Below are positions 11,257-31,284 of a stretch of 32,071 nt of DNA, in pieces. Location of the stretch: positions 1-32,071 of the forward strand of contig JAFGGB010000098.1 of NCBI GenBank assembly GCA_016930775.1. Reading direction: 5' to 3'. Both the position numbers and the translations under genes were made by a program. Source of the DNA: Deltaproteobacteria bacterium. GTDB lineage: Bacteria; Desulfobacterota; Syntrophia; Syntrophales; UBA2210. The notes under the pieces are model-generated. The model saw only the letters and a list, made by a program, of their open reading frames with translations, was not told the origin of the DNA and made no database searches. Every line of letters starts with the position of its first letter. Within the stretch, counting starts at the first letter, position 1.

Positions 11257-12051
11257 TCAGCAGGGGAGATTTTTCAGGAGTTTCTTGGTCTCTGTCACTA
11301 TCCTCGGCATGATTTTGCCGGCCATTTCCGTTATCACCACGTCGGCAAGCCTGTCGCATGGCGTCGGGCTCATATTGACGATCACGAGCGACGCCCCGGC
11401 GGCCTTTGCGTAGCCCGGCATGAACGAGGCGGGCTGGACCGCAAGGGATGAACCGACGACAATGAAGAGATCGCAGGATTCGGCATGGCATGTTGCCGCT
11501 TCGATGGTGTTCAGAGGCAGTTGCTCCCCAAAGAAGACAACATTAGGTTTCAGCATTCCGTGGCACCGCTTGCACAGAGGGATCTCCTTGCCGTTCAGCA
11601 ACTGTTCTCTGATCGCCTCCATTGCAAAGAGACTGCTGCAATCGAGACATTTGGCCCATTGCATGTTGCCGTGAAGCTCGTAGACCCGGTCCTGGGAACT
11701 CCCCGCTTTCTGATGAAGATCGTCGATGTTTTGCGTGATGATGCAGTCGAGTCTGCCCATTTGCTCCAGTTCCGCTATGGCACGATGAGCCCTGTTCGGT
11801 TCGATGTTTCTGAACAGGCCCTCCTCAACGAGGATTTTCCACTGTTTTCTCCTGGTTTCATCGCTTGCTATGAACTTCTGGATTGTGAAATCGTCAGGAT
11901 CGAAACGGGTCCAAATTCCTCCGGGACTTCTAAAATCGGGAATGCCTGATTCTGTGCTGATGCCGGCGCCGGTGAATACAACAATACGTTCGGCCCGCGC
12001 GATCATCGACGCAACGAGCGCTATCTTTTCGGTTAATCCCTTTTCCGTCAC
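11257..12051 (-). CDS. SIR2-family NAD-dependent deacylase (sirtuin)
   Basis: VVFTGAGISTESGIPDFRSPGGIW, TQNIDDLHQKAG, ELHGN, Zn ligands CLDC/CKRC, KPNVVFFGEQLP, VVGSSLAVQPA. Confidence 0.95.
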   Translation of the reverse strand: MTEKGLTEKIALVASMIARAERIVVFTGAGISTESGIPDFRSPGGIWTRFDPDDFTIQKFIASDETRRKQWKILVEEGLFRNIEPNRAHRAIAELEQMGRLDCIITQNIDDLHQKAGSSQDRVYELHGNMQWAKCLDCSSLFAMEAIREQLLNGKEIPLCKRCHGMLKPNVVFFGEQLPLNTIEAATCHAESCDLFIVVGSSLAVQPASFMPGYAKAAGASLVIVNMSPTPCDRLADVVITEMAGKIMPRIVTETKKLLKNLPC

Positions 12052-12118
12052 TGTTTCGCCCCTCGAAATTTACTGAAGGTCTTCTACCACAGTTGCGCCT
12101 TCCGATCATTGGTATTTT

Positions 12119-13672
12119 TCAGACCTGCGAAGGGACTGCGGCGCTCTTGAAAGAGCCTTGGGTTGCCAGAGCGAAAAAGGGGGCATGGTTCGATGTGAAA
12201 ATCGGAGGATCCCGGTTGAGTATAACGGCTATGGCGGAATTGCGTTTGAATTCACGGTCGAGGAACTGCCGCACGAGGGACCGTTCCCAACCCTTGGGAT
12301 GTTTGAACCGCCGGTAGAGAGAAAGATCGCCCGGATAGAATTCATCGGTTTGAAGCCAGGCGGTGTCGGGACCATAGGCTGGCATGTTGAAAATGGCGAC
12401 GTTCAAAAAACTTATATCGTCGCGGTGATCAACGACGAATTCCATGGTCCGCCGCGCCTCTTCATAACTCTCGGGCGGTGTCCCAAAAAGAAGATAAACA
12501 TAGGAGGCTATCCCTGCCTTTCGAAGTTGTTTCAGCGCATTCGATGCCGTCGCAAGTTTAATTCCCTTCTGTAGAGCATCCAACACTCCTTGATCGCCGG
12601 ACTCAATGCCTAATTTGAGCATAACGCAGCCCGATCGCTTCAGATCCATGCAAAAACCTTCGTCGGCGAGCTTTTCCGTAACTCGTGCGAAGCCGTACCA
12701 TGGAACTCCCAATGGTACGGTCGCCAGATAATTCAGGAGAGCGGGGCTCATGGCATTATCCACAAAATGTACGAGAAAGGGTTTCGTTGTGGTGATCAAC
12801 GATTCAAGTTCACTGGCAATTTCATCGACAGGTCGTGCAGCGTAGACAGTTCCTTCCGCACGCTCCGGGCAGAATGAGCAGCGGTTCCAGTAACAACCCC
12901 AAGAAGCGCTGTAAGGAAGGATGAAACCGGGAGAGAGGTATTCTACGGTTTTGAAATCGGTGTAGTCGGAGGAGATTAAATCGTTATCCAAAGACAGACC
13001 GGCAAGATTAACAAGGGTCTCCTCGCCCGGCCCGGCGATCAGTTTGTCTACATAACCGGAGAAAGGGTTCGACCACAGAGGGTTGCTGAGCCACGACGTG
13101 ACGAGACCGCCGCCCAGGATAACGGGAACTGACGGAACAAGGCGACGTACGATGCCGATCATGGCAAAGGTCGTCAACGCCTGGCTCAGGTAATTGAGCG
13201 AAAAACCCAGGAATGCGGGTGTAGTCTTCTCAAGTGCGCCGGCGAGACGCTTCTCAAAATAAGGGCTAAAGGGGTTTTTTTCGGGGTGATCCGCCGCATC
13301 GATGAGGTCATCGCTTCGCAGCGGCGACTGGGCATGGTGCTGAAAGTTGCCGAGGCTAACATGGGTGTCGAAGGGACGCGAGAGTTCATCGAGAAGGCGA
13401 TTGAGATCCTTCACGGTTCTCCTGTAGCGGTCGATGTTTTCGTAAAGGCGCCACTGTCTAAGATATTTCAGATTGCTTTCTCGGTTGCGCAGAGCCCGTT
13501 TCGTCCATGTGTTCTCAACCACTGGGGATTGTCCCAGGAGATCAAGGAGTCCCTCGACATTCGCATCGATAATGTCGCAGGAACAACCATGCCGCCGAAG
13601 ACTTCCGGCCAATTTTGCGATGCCGGCCGGCGCCTCGCTGGGTTTCGTCACAGGCGGGTTGATGAGGAGCAT
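12119..13672 (-). CDS. B12-binding-domain-type radical SAM protein
   Basis: N-terminal LLINPP...GIAKLAGSLRRHG; radical SAM cluster motif SWGCYWNRCSFC (Cx4Cx2C); ...LKLGIESGDQGVLDALQKG... and YLLFGTPPES. Confidence 0.87.
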   Translation of the reverse strand: MLLINPPVTKPSEAPAGIAKLAGSLRRHGCSCDIIDANVEGLLDLLGQSPVVENTWTKRALRNRESNLKYLRQWRLYENIDRYRRTVKDLNRLLDELSRPFDTHVSLGNFQHHAQSPLRSDDLIDAADHPEKNPFSPYFEKRLAGALEKTTPAFLGFSLNYLSQALTTFAMIGIVRRLVPSVPVILGGGLVTSWLSNPLWSNPFSGYVDKLIAGPGEETLVNLAGLSLDNDLISSDYTDFKTVEYLSPGFILPYSASWGCYWNRCSFCPERAEGTVYAARPVDEIASELESLITTTKPFLVHFVDNAMSPALLNYLATVPLGVPWYGFARVTEKLADEGFCMDLKRSGCVMLKLGIESGDQGVLDALQKGIKLATASNALKQLRKAGIASYVYLLFGTPPESYEEARRTMEFVVDHRDDISFLNVAIFNMPAYGPDTAWLQTDEFYPGDLSLYRRFKHPKGWERSLVRQFLDREFKRNSAIAVILNRDPPIFTSNHAPFFALATQGSFKSAAVPSQV

Positions 13673-22808: not shown

Positions 22809-24812
22809 CTATGCTGCTGCCCCGGCATCATGTGTCGTTTGTCTGTTCTTTCTCATCCACTGAAGTCCGACGACAAGAATGAAAAGGACGAAGCCCGTCA
22901 GATCAGTTTTCCATCCCGGCTTGATCATTAAGAAGGCAGTCACGTACAGCAGGATGATTTCATACCAGGCGGCCTTGACAAGCATGCATCGCTGGACGGC
23001 TGCAGCAAGGCAAACAACGCCGAATACTGCCGTAATAAAAGTGAGAATTATCCTCCAGGGCTCCCCTATGAACAGCAGTGACGGCGCATAGACAAACATA
23101 AAGGGAATGATAAATCCCGCGATGCCGAGTTGAAAAGCGCTGATGCCCGTTTTCCATGGATCCGATCGGGCAATGCCGGCGCCTGCATAGGCTGCCAGTG
23201 CAACAGGGGGAGTGATGTCGGCTCTGGTGCCGAAATAGAGAATGAAAAGGTGGGCGGCGATGGGAACAACCCCCATCTGGGTGAGGGCAGGCGCCACCAG
23301 AGACGAAATGATAACATACTGGGCCGTCGTTGGAACGCCCATGCCGAGAAAAATACATGCGACCATCGTGAACGGCAGGGCCAGGTAAAGCTTGCCCATG
23401 GATGCGTCCACGATGAATGACGAAAACATGATGCCCAATCCCGACATGGTGATGCATCCGATGATAATGCCCGCTGCGCCGCAGGCTGCGGCGACTTCGA
23501 CGGCGCCGAGGGATCCCTCGATGAGCCCGTCGAGGACTGTTTTTCCAAAGATCTTTAAGGGTTCTTTTCTAACCACTGCCATTGCGAAGGAGGAGACAAT
23601 TGTGGCGAAGATGGCCCAAAAAACTGCGCGCTCCGGTGAAAAATTGTTCATTAGAAAATAGATGAGAATAAATATCGAAAATATGTGATGCCAGCCTTTT
23701 TTGAAGGCTTCCCCTATTTTGGGCAGTTCTTGACGAGACATGCCGCTCAGACCAAGGGAGACGGCTCGAAAGTGAACCTGCATAAATGTGGCAAAGAAGG
23801 CAAGGAGTGCGGGAATCGCTGCGGCGACGCAGACCTTGAAATAGGGTATAGACAAAAATTCTGCCATGATGAAGGCTGCCGCACCCATAATGGGAGGCAT
23901 GATCTGTCCCATTGTGGAGGCCGAAGCCTCGACGCCGGCGGCGAAGTGAGGCGGATATCCCGTTCGCTTCATCAAAGGAATTGTGAATGATCCCGTCGTC
24001 ACCGTGTTGGCTACAGAGCTCCCCGATATCATGCCGAAGAACGTGCTGGAGACAACTGCTGCCTTTGCGGGACCTCCCCGGCTCCATCCCGTCAGCGCAA
24101 AGGCGATGTCGGTGAAAAACTCGCCGGCGCCGGTTTTCCTGAGAAGGGCGCCGTAGAGAATAAAAAGAAGAATAAAGTTGGCGGAAACTCCCATGGGAAC
24201 GCCGAAAATGCCGTCCGTTGAGAGGGAAAGATAGGTAGAGATTCTTTTTATACTGTATGCCTTGTGGGCAATGATGTCCGGCAGATAGGGGCCGAAAATA
24301 GTGTAACAGATAAAAATAACCGCAATCAGAGGCACAGCGATGCCGGTGGTCCGACGCGAAGCTTCGAGAACCAACAGGACCATTGCTGTTCCCAGGATCA
24401 CGTCGATGGGCTGGTACGAGCCCGAACGATTGAGAATAGGGGTGGAATAAATAAATATCCACAGGCAAATGGCGGCCGTGACAATCAGAAGGGCGCCGTC
24501 GATGACGGTCATTCGGTTCCAAGGAGATCTTTTTTTAGAAAAAGGATAGAGGGCAAAGGCGAAGCATGACATGAAAAGCCAGTGAAACGCCCTGTGATCG
24601 AGGGCGAAAAAAGGATGCCAGTAAGCATAGTAAAGATGATATATGGAAGAAAGAACGGCGATAATGCTGATAACAAGACCCGGCAATCCCGTGAAGGAAC
24701 GTTTACGTTCAAAACGTTCGAGAATTTCCTGAGCTCTTCTCGCCGTTTCATCCAACGATTCAGCTTCCGGAGTTTTTCCTTCCAGGATAATTGTTTTTTC
24801 GCGTTCAATCAT
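22809..24812 (-). CDS. TRAP transporter permease, fused 4TM/12TM (TAXI type)
   Basis: Multispanning protein with SGSSVANTVTTGSFTIPLMKRTGYPPHFAAGVEASASTMGQIMPPIMGAAAFIMAEF, GMGVPTTAQYVI and RADITPPVALAAYAGAGIA. Confidence 0.95.
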   Translation of the reverse strand: MIEREKTIILEGKTPEAESLDETARRAQEILERFERKRSFTGLPGLVISIIAVLSSIYHLYYAYWHPFFALDHRAFHWLFMSCFAFALYPFSKKRSPWNRMTVIDGALLIVTAAICLWIFIYSTPILNRSGSYQPIDVILGTAMVLLVLEASRRTTGIAVPLIAVIFICYTIFGPYLPDIIAHKAYSIKRISTYLSLSTDGIFGVPMGVSANFILLFILYGALLRKTGAGEFFTDIAFALTGWSRGGPAKAAVVSSTFFGMISGSSVANTVTTGSFTIPLMKRTGYPPHFAAGVEASASTMGQIMPPIMGAAAFIMAEFLSIPYFKVCVAAAIPALLAFFATFMQVHFRAVSLGLSGMSRQELPKIGEAFKKGWHHIFSIFILIYFLMNNFSPERAVFWAIFATIVSSFAMAVVRKEPLKIFGKTVLDGLIEGSLGAVEVAAACGAAGIIIGCITMSGLGIMFSSFIVDASMGKLYLALPFTMVACIFLGMGVPTTAQYVIISSLVAPALTQMGVVPIAAHLFILYFGTRADITPPVALAAYAGAGIARSDPWKTGISAFQLGIAGFIIPFMFVYAPSLLFIGEPWRIILTFITAVFGVVCLAAAVQRCMLVKAAWYEIILLYVTAFLMIKPGWKTDLTGFVLFILVVGLQWMRKNRQTTHDAGAAA

Positions 24813-25305
24813 GGAGAACTCCTTTCGAATCTACAGTACGGATCAATACCAGGTCTCCTCCATTGGCTATCGACTGAAGCGGCACAACTCGATCATTGCA
24901 GGTAATCCGATGACCGGCAACGCGGCCAACCCGCAAGAGGAAGTTTGGAAAGGGCCGGTGCATGGTCACTCGCGTCCGTTTGCCTTCCAACGATATTGAA
25001 GCCTTTGCTCCAGGGTGGAATTCAAGTCCCGCGCCATACCAGTCGAACTCTTCCTGCAAGAGAATAATGGTTCCACCTTCTTCGATCACGAATGTGTCGT
25101 GAATTGGTGTGTGGTCCGATGAATGGGTATAATCAAGGTAAAAATGATCCCCCGAATGCACTGGCAGAGAAAGCAGCACCTTTTCCTCGGGCATCTTGAG
25201 CACCTGGAGCAATAACTCCCCTCCCATTGCAGCCGTCGTTACGGTTGCGACAGCCCACAAGAAGACCGTAAGAATAATAATTTCTTGTACGCGCCAGCGA
25301 GTCAT
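24805..25305 (-). CDS. DUF1850 domain protein
   Basis: Small protein between TAXI SBP and TRAP permease; LDYTHSSDHTPIHDTFVIEEGGTIILLQEEFDWYGAGLEF fits the TAXI-associated DUF1850 family. Confidence 0.85.
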   Translation of the reverse strand: MTRWRVQEIIILTVFLWAVATVTTAAMGGELLLQVLKMPEEKVLLSLPVHSGDHFYLDYTHSSDHTPIHDTFVIEEGGTIILLQEEFDWYGAGLEFHPGAKASISLEGKRTRVTMHRPFPNFLLRVGRVAGHRITCNDRVVPLQSIANGGDLVLIRTVDSKGVLHD

Positions 25306-25321
25306 AATGCACGAGAAGGCT

Positions 25322-25352
25322 TTCCGGCGGGAGGGGTTGCCTCCCGCCGGAA
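25322..25352 (-). promoter_or_regulatory. intercistronic hairpin between SBP and DUF1850 genes
   Basis: TTCCGGCGGGAGG-ggttg-CCTCCCGCCGGAA: perfect 13-bp arms; no T-run on the minus strand. Confidence 0.7.
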
Positions 25353-25378
25353 CGATTGGTGTTTGCCTGTTCCCCTTC

Positions 25379-26338
25379 TTATTTAGTTACTTCCTTGAAG
25401 TACTTCATGGCGCCAGGATGGATCGGAATAGGGCTGTTGATTGCGTTTGCAGGCGTTAGCTGCTCGGCGATGGGATGGATGTTGACAAGGGCGTATTTGC
25501 TGTCCTTGACATTTGTGAAGATCGCCTTGACTATCTTATAGGCGATTTCATCGGACATGTTTTTGTTGGCAATGAGAACATTAGAATCGCCGATGCAGAG
25601 AACATCGTAATCAACGCCGCTATAAGCGCCCTTGGGAATGGTAACTTTCAAATAATAGGGATATTTCTTTACAACCTTGGCGGCGAGCTGAGCGCTTACG
25701 GGCACCAGAACGATATCGCGGGTCGCAGCAAGATCCATCACGGCCGAGCCGGGGTAGGCAAAATTAAAGAAACAGGCGTCAACGACGCCGTCCTTTAAAG
25801 CCTGTGCCGATTCGGTCTGGGAGAGCCCCGCAAGTGTGAGGTCCTTGTCAAGGTTGAAACCCGCTTCGGAGAGGATTGCGCGGGCCATGTCGTGACAGCC
25901 GCTCCCGGGGACGTCAATTGACACTTTCTTGCCCTTCAGGTCGGCGATGCTTTTGATGCCCGACTGTTTGGTTGTTACAATATGCTCGGGCGCTGGATAC
26001 ATCTGGAAAAGGGTCACGACAGATTCCTTTTTATCGAAAGGCGCCAAGCCTTGAGAGGCCTTGTAGGCGACGCTGCCCATGACCATGCCCATGTCTGTTT
26101 CCTGCGCTCCCACGAGGCGGCTGTTCTCCACGGAGGCGCCGGTAGACTCCGCAGCGCACCGAAGTTCGGGAACAGTCTTTTCAATAATGACGGCCATCCC
26201 GCCACCCAATGGGTAGTACACGCCGCCGGGACTTCCCGATCCCAGAGTAAGAAATGTTTTCTTGGCCATGACGGGTCCTGCGAAGAGCAGTGACAGTGCG
26301 ACCATAAGGATCGCCGCTACAAACAAAGATCGTTTCAT
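25379..26338 (-). CDS. TAXI-family TRAP transporter solute-binding protein
   Basis: Signal peptide MKRSLFVAAILMVALSLLFAGPVMA; TLGSGSPGGVYYPLGGGMAVIIEK; KGKKVSIDVPGSGCHDMARAIL. Start at 26338 preferred over 26458. Confidence 0.94.
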   Translation of the reverse strand: MKRSLFVAAILMVALSLLFAGPVMAKKTFLTLGSGSPGGVYYPLGGGMAVIIEKTVPELRCAAESTGASVENSRLVGAQETDMGMVMGSVAYKASQGLAPFDKKESVVTLFQMYPAPEHIVTTKQSGIKSIADLKGKKVSIDVPGSGCHDMARAILSEAGFNLDKDLTLAGLSQTESAQALKDGVVDACFFNFAYPGSAVMDLAATRDIVLVPVSAQLAAKVVKKYPYYLKVTIPKGAYSGVDYDVLCIGDSNVLIANKNMSDEIAYKIVKAIFTNVKDSKYALVNIHPIAEQLTPANAINSPIPIHPGAMKYFKEVTK

Positions 26339-26535
26339 GACTTCCCTCCTCTGTTTTTTCTCGCTGGTGAAATTGTGGTTATTAAGTGCGCCCCGTAGGG
26401 CTCTTCTTTTGCAAATCGTCATGCCGCACCGGCATATTGTCCTGATTAAATAAAGCAACTCGCTTCATTCCAAAGGATTATTGTCGGTGATGAAACCCGG
26501 AGGGCAAGAACCGCAGTTTTGCAATCGAAGGAGAA

Positions 26536-27597: not shown

Positions 27598-28794
27598 TTA
27601 TTTCCAGCAACCGGCAATGGGGAACCGGCAGTGAATGCAGCGATTGCCTTCTATATGGAAGTTTGCAACAGTATATCCAGTCCTCTCGATGATCCTGGCC
27701 TTGCAGGAAGGACAGTATGTGTGGCTGGCCTCATCGGGGGGGATGTTTCCGATATAGACGTATCGGATGCCCCTGTTCATCGCCGCAGATCTGGCCTCAC
27801 GCAGCAGGTTGATTGGCGTTGGAGGGAGACGGGTGAGTTTATATCGGGGATAAAACCTTGAAATATGGAGAGGCACGTCCGGTCCCAGGTTGTCGAGTAT
27901 CCATGCGGATATGTCAGTTACCATATCGATGCTGTCGGTGTGTGAGGGTATCATGAGGAGGGTAATTTCAATCCACACGCCCCGTTTTTTGAGAGTCGTC
28001 AACGTTTCCAGCACCGGCGCCAGTCGTCCGGCGTTGAGTCGTGCGTAGGTTGATTCCGAAAAACTTTTAAGATCCACATTTGCCCCGTCCAGAAGGTTTG
28101 CCAACCGATCCAGCGGTTCCTTGTTGATATAGCCGTTGGTGATCCAGACGTTCTTTATTCCTCTGGTCCGGGCGATTTCGGCTGTATCAATCATGTATTC
28201 GTAAAATGTCGTTGCTTCTGTATAGGTGTACGCGAGAGCCCTGCAATGTTCCTTCAAGGCATCCTCTGCGGCCTCATTCGGAGATAGGTCTTGAAATCGA
28301 ACCTCTTCCGGCTTTGCCTGGGAAATTTCCCAGTTCTGACAATTGAGGCAATTGAAGCTGCATCCCGTTGTGGCTACGGAGAGAGTGGAGGAACCGGGAT
28401 AGAAGTGATAGAGCGGCTTTTTTTCCACAGGGTCGATGTGAACGGCACAGGGATTGCCGTATGAGAGAGTGTACAGTCTGCCGCCCTTGTTCACATGAGA
28501 TCCGCAGCGGCTTCTGGCTTCCGGTGGAAGAACGCACTGGTTGGGACAGGTGAGACACTGGACGACGTCCCTGCTGAGCCGGCGCTTGAAGTAGACTTCT
28601 TTCGACCACTTCCAGAGGGTCTTCGGCGCGTCGTTGTTTGAGACTGATTTTTCGTTTTTATTCACTTGAAAGATCTGGGCGGCAGCTCTCTCAAGGGGCG
28701 TAAACATGAGGCATCCTGCTGCGCCCGCCCTGAGGACGTCCCTCCGCGTCATCCATGCCGCAGAATAACTGCTGATGCCTAGATATCTTTTCAT
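27598..28794 (-). CDS. AmmeMemoRadiSam-type radical SAM protein with twin-arginine-like leader
   Basis: MTRRDVLRAGAAGCLMF leader; CLTCPNQCVLPPEARSRCG; CSFNCLNCQN (Cx3Cx2C); C-terminal CPSC/CIHC pair. Confidence 0.9.
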   Translation of the reverse strand: MKRYLGISSYSAAWMTRRDVLRAGAAGCLMFTPLERAAAQIFQVNKNEKSVSNNDAPKTLWKWSKEVYFKRRLSRDVVQCLTCPNQCVLPPEARSRCGSHVNKGGRLYTLSYGNPCAVHIDPVEKKPLYHFYPGSSTLSVATTGCSFNCLNCQNWEISQAKPEEVRFQDLSPNEAAEDALKEHCRALAYTYTEATTFYEYMIDTAEIARTRGIKNVWITNGYINKEPLDRLANLLDGANVDLKSFSESTYARLNAGRLAPVLETLTTLKKRGVWIEITLLMIPSHTDSIDMVTDISAWILDNLGPDVPLHISRFYPRYKLTRLPPTPINLLREARSAAMNRGIRYVYIGNIPPDEASHTYCPSCKARIIERTGYTVANFHIEGNRCIHCRFPIAGCWK

Positions 28795-28795
28795 A

Positions 28796-30922
28796 TCATT
28801 CTATAAATTCCTTTTTTCTACTTATAATGAAGGCCAAAATTAAAAATTTTCCCAGGAAAAGGAGAAGGAGAGTCCGAAGAATGCCGATGAACGGAATGAG
28901 AAAAACAGCCGACAGGAAGGCGCCCGCTGCGGCGCCTGTAAAATCCGCCGCATAAAGAAGTCCCGCCGTTTCATAAGACGGCCTGTCGACAGATCGCCCG
29001 GCGACGGGGAATTCCGCGCCTGCGAGAAATCCGATGCTGGTTGTCAGAATAGCAATTGTGAATGCGTTCAAATATTTGCCTCCGCTGTTAAGAATGAGAC
29101 AAACAATCAAAAGATAGAGGATTATTCCCGCTTCCAGGCTTATCAACATGTTTCGAGCGCACTTCTTGATCCTGACGGCTGCGAAACTCCCCCCGGCGAG
29201 ACCGATCATGAATGACGCTATGATCATGCCGATGCCGCTATAGACGCTTCCGTTGACAATCTGATAGAGGAGCAGGATTGTCACCTCGACGGATGAGGCG
29301 ACTACGCCTGTTGAAAAAATAGTTTTTCCCGCAATGTCAAGCCTGGCGAAACAGAGAACGATCAGGAAAGCCGCCAAAAGCAGCGGATACCGGTAATGCT
29401 CCCGGAACATCGACAGCCAAACGGCGAGGGAAAGCATATAGGCCGCCGGGTGAAAATCTCTGTTGATCGAAGCCTGCCGATTTGTTCGGTCGGCCAGGGA
29501 GGCCAGCCGGGTTTCCGAGAGCCTGTCCGGCACGTAATGCTCGTTCATAAAAACCGTCGGAATGCCGAGCTTGTGAAGACGCGGGAGAACATCTAATGTC
29601 AGGGGACCGTTGGAGGCTAAAAATATTTGGCGTTCTCCCGGAACGATCAACACGCAGGAAAAGACCTGCCGGACCGTTTTTTCAAGAGTTGCCAACAGCT
29701 CTGCCTGCTCGTCGCTGATATAATTGGCAGATCCGGCGACGGCGAAGGCGAGGATGCCGCCAGCCATGAGATGAGAAGAGACCTCTCTGAAAAATTCAAC
29801 AGTATAAAAACGGTTGAGCTGAAGAGTTCGGGGATCGCCAACGCCAACGAGCACTGCATCGTACATCGCGCTTGTTTCGCTGAGGAAGCGCCGTCCATCC
29901 GCAATATGGATTGAAAGAGTCGATGGGAAGGCTGCTTGTGCATGCACGCGCGACATCTTGATCAAGCCCGGGTCGAGCTCGACGTAATCGATCCGAGAGG
30001 GCCGGTACTTCACGATTTCGTCTATCACGCCGGCAACGCCGCCGGAAACGATAAGGACGCTGTCCATTGCCTCCCGCTGGCCCATGGCAAAGTGAACAAT
30101 TTCCTCGCTGGCATAAATATCGGGAATGGAAAAGAGATGAGCTCCGTTTTCGAAGAAGGATATCTGGCTGGCGAGTTCCGTTACGACGATTCGGCCGTAA
30201 GGCGACTCGGCATGACCGAGAAGTTTCTGGGAGGGATACAGTTGACGCAGGCTGATATCGTCAAGAGGGAGGACAATGAGGGACGAAACAACCAGCAGTG
30301 CGGCAGTCAGTCCCGGGCCGTAGCGTGAGGCCCGGCTGTCCGTCGTTCTGCGCCGCATGAGGATATGAAGACCAATCAGGAGGAGCGCCGGAAAGAGAAG
30401 GACTGTAAGGGTGGAAAACCAGCGGACGAGTAAAAAAGTAAAGAGAAGCCCTCCAAGAATATCTCCCAGGTTGTCCAGAAAGTAGACGCGACCGATGGAG
30501 TCTTCTTGACGACGGCCCGGCTTCGTGAGGCCGCAGACCGCTGCCAGCGCGGCGCCCGTAACAAGGCAATAAGGCGTCATGATCAATCCCAGGAAAAGGG
30601 TTGTGGGCAGAAGGCCGGGGATCTCGCCCGGAAGAAAAAAAACGTTCCTGAGAAGCCGGATTGATAGAATCTGCAGGATGGGTAGAAGGGCTGCTATTAT
30701 CAGAGAGCTTCGGAAGAGGCGCAGTTGCAGAGTTGCACTCTTCACGGCAGCGCCGAGGCGGGCTCCGAGTCCCGAGAGAAGGAACCACAAGGCGATGACG
30801 ACGCCAAGGACAAGCTCATTGCCAGACTGAACATTGATGGCCTCGCGGGCTACGGTGATTTGGGTGATGATGTGTGAAATGCCAAGGGCGATCACCGCAG
30901 GGGCTGTTAAGGCAGGGGCCAT
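28796..30922 (-). CDS. multispanning membrane protein with central spermidine-synthase-like domain
   Basis: TM helices on both sides of SVLIVSGGVAGVIDEIVKYRPSRIDYVELDPGLIKMSR...LVGVGDPRTLQLNRFYTVEFFREVSSHLMAGG. Confidence 0.85.
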   Translation of the reverse strand: MAPALTAPAVIALGISHIITQITVAREAINVQSGNELVLGVVIALWFLLSGLGARLGAAVKSATLQLRLFRSSLIIAALLPILQILSIRLLRNVFFLPGEIPGLLPTTLFLGLIMTPYCLVTGAALAAVCGLTKPGRRQEDSIGRVYFLDNLGDILGGLLFTFLLVRWFSTLTVLLFPALLLIGLHILMRRRTTDSRASRYGPGLTAALLVVSSLIVLPLDDISLRQLYPSQKLLGHAESPYGRIVVTELASQISFFENGAHLFSIPDIYASEEIVHFAMGQREAMDSVLIVSGGVAGVIDEIVKYRPSRIDYVELDPGLIKMSRVHAQAAFPSTLSIHIADGRRFLSETSAMYDAVLVGVGDPRTLQLNRFYTVEFFREVSSHLMAGGILAFAVAGSANYISDEQAELLATLEKTVRQVFSCVLIVPGERQIFLASNGPLTLDVLPRLHKLGIPTVFMNEHYVPDRLSETRLASLADRTNRQASINRDFHPAAYMLSLAVWLSMFREHYRYPLLLAAFLIVLCFARLDIAGKTIFSTGVVASSVEVTILLLYQIVNGSVYSGIGMIIASFMIGLAGGSFAAVRIKKCARNMLISLEAGIILYLLIVCLILNSGGKYLNAFTIAILTTSIGFLAGAEFPVAGRSVDRPSYETAGLLYAADFTGAAAGAFLSAVFLIPFIGILRTLLLLFLGKFLILAFIISRKKEFIE

Positions 30923-31284
30923 CAGCGTTTTCTTCCTTTCAGCGGCCGCAGGCGGAAGGAGAGGGCAACTGCAAGAAGATAGAGGAACGTAAGAATTGCG
31001 ACCATGTGGAAAGTATTTTCGTTCACGTAGATGACATCTTCAAGATGGCGCATGATAAAGGATTCGTCAAGGATTCCACCATAACCGGCTCGCCGCTTGA
31101 GATAAGCCTCAAGATAAGTCAATGGACAGGCCGCGCCCGTCAATTGCATGACAACCATGGCTGCGAGGGAAAGGGCGTGAATAACGCGCCATCGGCCGGC
31201 ATTGAGACAGAGGAAAAGAGGGAACCCCGCGATGATGAAGATGATCCATAAAAAATGGATTGCGATTACGAGATCGGCGATCAT
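30922..31284 (-). CDS. DUF2784 domain membrane protein
   Basis: MIADLVIAIHFLWIIFIIAGFPLF...WRVIHALSLAAMVVMQLTGAACPLTYLE; 1-bp stop/start overlap with downstream gene. Start at 31284 preferred over 31356. Confidence 0.85.
   Translation of the reverse strand: MIADLVIAIHFLWIIFIIAGFPLFLCLNAGRWRVIHALSLAAMVVMQLTGAACPLTYLEAYLKRRAGYGGILDESFIMRHLEDVIYVNENTFHMVAILTFLYLLAVALSFRLRPLKGRKR

Follow-up and report, generated by a model that had tools for sequence, protein, structure and literature searches.

The AmmeMemoRadiSam system combines a radical SAM enzyme (AmrS family, TIGR04337) with the Memo (PF01875) and AMMECR1 (PF01871) families, and is cytoplasmic. Memo and AMMECR1 are conserved up to humans, and Burroughs (JBC, 2019), in work on Memo contexts, reportedly proposes nucleotide-base and isoprenoid modification. 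Radical SAM enzymes need a low-potential electron donor, and they are assumed to work in the cytoplasm since that is where SAM and strong reductants are found; to our knowledge, neither the availability of SAM nor radical-SAM chemistry is known outside the cytoplasm. PMC6393860 includes AMMECR1 in its list of archaeal proteins without known function, and PMC13386939 gives it as a strong anaerobe marker; PMC7159879 cites work from 2019 on Memo-AMMECR1 systems. Judged by title, none of the papers found to name AmmeMemoRadiSam is a dedicated study of the system, and no paper among those searched was found to describe an exported radical SAM enzyme or an exported AmmeMemoRadiSam version. Provisionally, we regard the exported version described here as new and its families as already known.

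We analyzed an operon in a window of 32,071 nucleotides (the whole stretch of DNA under analysis) from a Deltaproteobacteria bacterium. It encodes an AmrS-family radical SAM enzyme (rSAM), a spermidine-synthase-like membrane protein (SPD) and a DUF2784 protein. Memo and AMMECR1, which mark an AmmeMemoRadiSam system when present within one genome, both occur in the window genome, each as its sole copy, in a single fused gene (G000:C146) that lies on a different contig from the operon and starts with an N-terminal signal-like sequence. The locus thus shares all three families with the cytoplasmic system, together with identical invariant Cys sets and a frequent AMMECR1-Memo fusion; it differs in export-type signals on all parts, a separate rSAM clade, an added 14-TM SPD and, often, an extra mini cytochrome-b-like protein. 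Since stand-alone AmrS and most Memo proteins are signal-less and cytoplasmic, and the proteins here carry Tat and Sec-type signals, we treat the locus as a variant of AmmeMemoRadiSam. SPD and rSAM probably belong to an AmmeMemoRadiSam system located outside the cytoplasm, with SPD as a nucleoside-binding partner in the membrane. The sequences themselves establish the grounds of this proposal: the family assignments, the intact catalytic cysteines, the linkage of the genes, signals of export type and a clade of their own.

Operon layout and the conserved neighborhood

The three minus-strand genes lie head to tail, DUF2784 first, then SPD and rSAM, with the following features.
30922..31284, minus strand: DUF2784 membrane protein (PF10861), a clade-specific neighbor of SPD
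30920..30924, minus strand: TGATG stop/start overlap between DUF2784 and SPD, read from the sequence
28796..30922, minus strand: SPD, a 708-aa membrane protein with 7 TM helices, an aminopropyltransferase-fold domain and 7 TM helices (PF01564, AF2, Foldseek)
27598..28794, minus strand: rSAM, a 398-aa AmrS-family radical SAM enzyme with a twin-arginine signal (TIGR04337)

Base 30922 belongs to both the stop codon of DUF2784 and the start codon of SPD (a 1-nt overlap), the SPD stop and the rSAM start are separated by a single nucleotide (28795), and the SPD and rSAM starts are both preceded by purine-rich Shine-Dalgarno-like stretches. The family assignments are well above threshold for DUF2784 (73.6 bits, 1.7e-20 against PF10861, gathering cut-off 29.7) and rSAM (340.3 bits against TIGR04337, cut-off 220, with PF04055 also matched), and SPD matches PF01564 Spermine_synth at 5.4e-18. 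DUF2784 comprises 120 aa from the ATG at 31284 in a reading frame open to 31356. All three proteins show membrane or export features: TM segments in DUF2784, 14 predicted TM helices in SPD, and a TRRDVLRAG motif followed by a hydrophobic stretch in rSAM. The sequence-only reading of this DNA had described three adjoining genes with this spacing, each product bearing a membrane or export signal, and both descriptions hold. A search for RNA elements found none, and a sigma-70 promoter scan gave 0 matches against 4 expected by chance. Downstream of the operon (window positions 24805-26458) lie genes for a TAXI TRAP solute-binding protein and a DUF1850 protein, and homologues of these genes again accompany the cluster in L133, L135, L143, L154 and L155.

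We then compared the neighborhood across genomes. Among 297 genomes of the window's phylum, 106 contained SPD homologues (E<=1e-30), and at least two AmrS homologues were present in 98 of these 106 genomes, versus 40 of the 191 SPD-negative ones (Fisher 1.8e-35). The window genome itself holds a second AmrS without a signal (L002, G000:C92). Within 5 kb of SPD, rSAM was found in 125 of 147 loci and Memo/AMMECR1 in 97; these loci were picked for SPD, come nearly all from MAGs and include some duplicates under different ids, and the fractions are therefore descriptive. Recurrent neighbors of SPD are rSAM and either fused Memo-AMMECR1 or a lone AMMECR1 gene. SPD and rSAM adjoin in many bacterial and archaeal phyla, and Memo-AMMECR1 is usually encoded alongside. 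At least 554 SPD relatives lie on genome contigs; the best 80, mostly from MAGs and many with the full set, belong to Deltaproteobacteria, Planctomycetota, Verrucomicrobiota, Bacteroidota, Ignavibacteriota, Nitrospirota and Omnitrophota, and to the archaeal Woese-, Nano-, Aenigm-, Alti- and Theionarchaeota. The system therein represented appears widespread among anaerobic bacteria and some archaea, with all of its soluble parts apparently exported.

The earlier reading had taken the three genes together as the system and proposed conservation of their neighborhood as the check. The SPD-rSAM order is kept across phyla, and the trio is kept within the order: DUF2784 adjoins SPD in the sister-clade loci L133, L134, L139, L140 and L141, and lies 3.3 kb off in L135. 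With the trio in five further sister-clade loci and the SPD-rSAM pair in more than 100 loci, the arrangement is not due to chance. That repeated gene order, and the translational coupling in the window, would fit a functional unit with DUF2784 as an integral component; we consider this unlikely, however, because DUF2784 adjoins SPD in only 1 of the 38 genomes of the phylum-wide sample that have both (the window's own) and is not found nearby in most SPD-rSAM loci. DUF2784 was accordingly rejected as a core member on adjacency and kept as a clade-specific partner. Judged by gene linkage, conservation centers on SPD plus rSAM and not on the trio; the usual partner, and third member in place of DUF2784, is a predicted exported Memo-AMMECR1.

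Some neighbors are more local. Downstream of rSAM, sister-clade loci encode a Memo-domain protein that lacks a signal and has roughly 90-140 additional aa at its N-terminus (L133:2707-3939, L135:8526-9890, L143:3584-4852, L144:3133-4350); no second Memo of this type was found for the window genome. The altiarchaeal cluster in L193 sits among genes for a UbiA-type prenyltransferase, a polyprenyl synthase and an FMN enzyme (L193:229-3084 and 11354-12148), with an AA_kinase-family gene, possibly an isopentenyl phosphate kinase, also in the neighborhood. No isoprenoid family was enriched around SPD over the 147 loci, so that the isoprenoid link is a lead only.

Export signals of the radical SAM enzyme and Memo-AMMECR1

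The nearest solved relative of rSAM by sequence is the pyruvate formate-lyase activating enzyme 3c8f. The alignment is limited to the radical SAM core; beyond it, rSAM has extra Cys sets towards both ends and a Tat signal, located as follows.
28678..28752, minus strand: predicted Tat signal region, residues ~15-39, M-TRRDVLRAGAAGCLMFTPLERAAA, with an RR/RK-x-[FVL]-[LI] motif and a hydrophobic stretch aligned in homologues
28504..28557, minus strand: N-terminal four-Cys set C80, C83, C87, C97, invariant in alignment A1
28339..28362, minus strand: radical SAM CxxxCxxC motif, C145-C149-C152, invariant in alignment A1
27628..27714, minus strand: C-terminal four-Cys set C361, C364, C386, C389 (metal or Fe-S site), invariant in alignment A1

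The CxxxCxxC motif was present in 129/129 rSAM homologues, and the Memo PHAG and AMMECR1 RGCIG motifs were kept in 60/60 SPD-linked fusions. Given this conservation and the invariant Cys sets, the exported proteins are not decayed copies.

Export signals were scored by our own pattern and hydrophobicity rules, not by SignalP/TatP; on this basis Tat-type N-termini were found in 115 of 123 SPD-linked rSAM proteins versus 0 of 20 stand-alone AmrS controls, the latter drawn from the window's phylum only. The 115 motifs, each followed by a hydrophobic stretch, comprise 80 RR, 23 RK and 12 KR; RK and KR signals are taken less readily by Tat than RR. The other eight proteins are three with another hydrophobic N-terminus (two of them, from Omnitrophota loci L189 and L222, of Sec type), three cytoplasmic AmrS proteins encoded 1.5 kb from SPD (L084-L086), and two without a readable start. 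In a tree computed without the signal region, one branch with 100% support split 52 exported from 24 cytoplasmic AmrS-family proteins, the controls again coming from the window's phylum only, and the window rSAM fell in the exported clade. Its twin-Arg TRRDVLRAG, ahead of the hydrophobic stretch, fits the pattern of a Tat substrate, and TatC is present in the window genome. Five archaeal loci on DPANN and Altiarchaeota MAG contigs carry tatC (PF00902, 178-211 bits) at most a few kb from the SPD and rSAM genes (L158:11032-11718, L161:4970-5668, L165:12152-12844, L170:4470-5165, L193:9566-10270), as expected if rSAM there is a main Tat cargo.

For Memo-AMMECR1, 54 of 60 SPD-linked fusions passed the hydrophobic N-terminus cut-off versus 2 of 30 control Memo proteins, one of which comes from an SPD-positive genome (G189); the six fusions below the cut-off include visible signals, such as MRAPMGPKRPPLLLILLLFFVSSC in L221. 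The signals are of Sec or lipoprotein (lipobox) type.

The hydrophobic N-termini might alternatively serve as membrane anchors, with rSAM and Memo-AMMECR1 forming an ordinary cytoplasmic AmmeMemoRadiSam system tethered at the inner face, where SAM and reductant are located; the catalytic residues, all intact as in the cytoplasmic paralogue, would suit such an arrangement. Against an anchor stand the conserved twin-Arg motif, the tatC genes adjoining the cluster in archaea, the Sec-type N-termini in Omnitrophota, the lipobox-type Memo-AMMECR1 signals and the predicted outside position of the SPD domain in 142/142 homologues, which together make this explanation distinctly improbable. Export of both proteins is the preferred interpretation.

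The spermidine-synthase-like membrane protein

The AF2 model of SPD (pLDDT 88.4, pTM 0.88) consists of seven helices, a soluble domain (about residues 230-505) and seven further helices, the spermidine-synthase-like region being placed as follows.
29396..30268, minus strand: spermidine-synthase-like domain, residues 219-509, predicted extracytoplasmic from K/R counts; E315 and D342 kept, Gly at position 360

Summed K+R in the loops was 17.6 on the side of the N-terminus versus 4.8 on the opposite side, with all 142 homologues in agreement. The K/R counts place the N-terminus inside and seven helices precede the domain, which is therefore predicted to lie outside. The domain has the aminopropyltransferase fold (Foldseek 1uir/3anx, TMt 0.73) and shares with spermidine synthases the Glu and Asp of the nucleoside pocket: D342 is invariant in SPD homologues and E315 occurs in 133/142, positions that we take, by motif, to be those holding the nucleoside. 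SPD also scores 63 bits against NF037959, the fused MFS/spermidine synthase (cut-off 40). It differs from spermidine synthases and NF037959 alike in the predicted outward-facing domain between 7+7 TM helices, in a catalytic Asp that is not conserved, and in a signature consisting of an invariant P364 and a near-invariant N370-R371. Of 142 homologues, 67 keep the first catalytic Asp, at position 360; 40 have Asn there and 16 have Gly. The window SPD has Gly, reading GVGDP where spermidine synthases have the catalytic Asp pair (DxxDP).

These data bear on whether SPD is a true aminopropyltransferase, making or modifying polyamines or aminopropylating an envelope molecule, with rSAM a mere genomic neighbor. 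The closest folds are indeed aminopropyltransferases, and the first catalytic Asp is retained in those 67 homologues; its replacement by Asn or Gly elsewhere, the family-specific signature and the linkage to rSAM and Memo-AMMECR1 across phyla argue against the assignment, which we judge very unlikely. Because the nucleoside-site Glu and Asp are kept and the base for aminopropyl transfer is lost, we favor nucleoside binding as the role of SPD. A protein annotated as spermidine synthase in Geobacter sulfurreducens, GSU2502, is numbered beside the omcT/omcS cytochrome genes (PMC10599522).

A proposed scheme and its electron supply

On balance, we lean towards a scheme of Tat-exported radical SAM catalysis outside the cytoplasm, common to many anaerobic bacteria and to DPANN/Altiarchaeal archaea, in which SPD and a mini cytochrome b or DUF2784 would feed SAM and electrons across the membrane and the enzyme would act with exported Memo-AMMECR1 on an envelope molecule. 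rSAM would be folded and loaded with its [4Fe-4S] cluster before Tat export, and Memo-AMMECR1 would follow the Sec route, often as a lipoprotein. SPD would reside in the membrane with its spermidine-synthase-like domain on the same outer side as rSAM, binding SAM or a SAM-derived nucleoside; most likely it would supply the exported rSAM with SAM or take care of the 5'-deoxyadenosine that rSAM produces, the SAM-donor role being a guess. The rSAM radical would be formed on a substrate in the envelope, be it lipid, isoprenoid or protein, with Memo-AMMECR1 helping in its processing. The suggestion from the sequence-only reading of an envelope-located modification system is well supported as to location; modification of a target is our conjecture. 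If the scheme is correct, a conserved exported system in bacterial and archaeal phyla would overturn the cytoplasm-only view of radical SAM, and SAM would then have to be present in the periplasm or an equivalent compartment. The exported version would also give genetics a handle on Memo and AMMECR1, as its location is defined, its membrane partner is linked and its possible substrates are limited.

In this scheme a reductant must pass through the membrane, and it may do so by way of a small two-TM protein (mostly 79-95 aa, two conserved His) encoded beside SPD in ~21 loci, several times overlapping the SPD stop codon. It shows a weak, sub-threshold likeness to cytochrome b561, and no curated family reaches its cut-off. 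Sister-clade examples are L139:6573-6812, L140:396-635, L141:3602-3841 and L153:4545-4784; others occur in L157, L160, L162, L163, L166, L167, L169, L177, L178, L181, L193 and further loci. A search of the window genome, run without a positive control, did not find this protein, and we speculate that DUF2784 may stand in for it there. DUF2784 has invariant H34, H60, CPxT and E83, both His lying in predicted helices, and its model is helical with TM segments (AF2 pTM 0.66). With that pTM and no PDB structural match at E<=0.001, it is only on the two invariant His that a heme role would rest.

Beside DUF2784 in the sister clade we observed a signal-bearing protein-L-isoaspartate methyltransferase (PCMT; L133:8159-8929, L141:202-966). 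This enzyme is SAM-dependent and predicted outside, which hints that SAM may be available there. The PCMT gene of L133 adjoins one for a second membrane protein with a Spermine_synth domain (L133:8936-10621).
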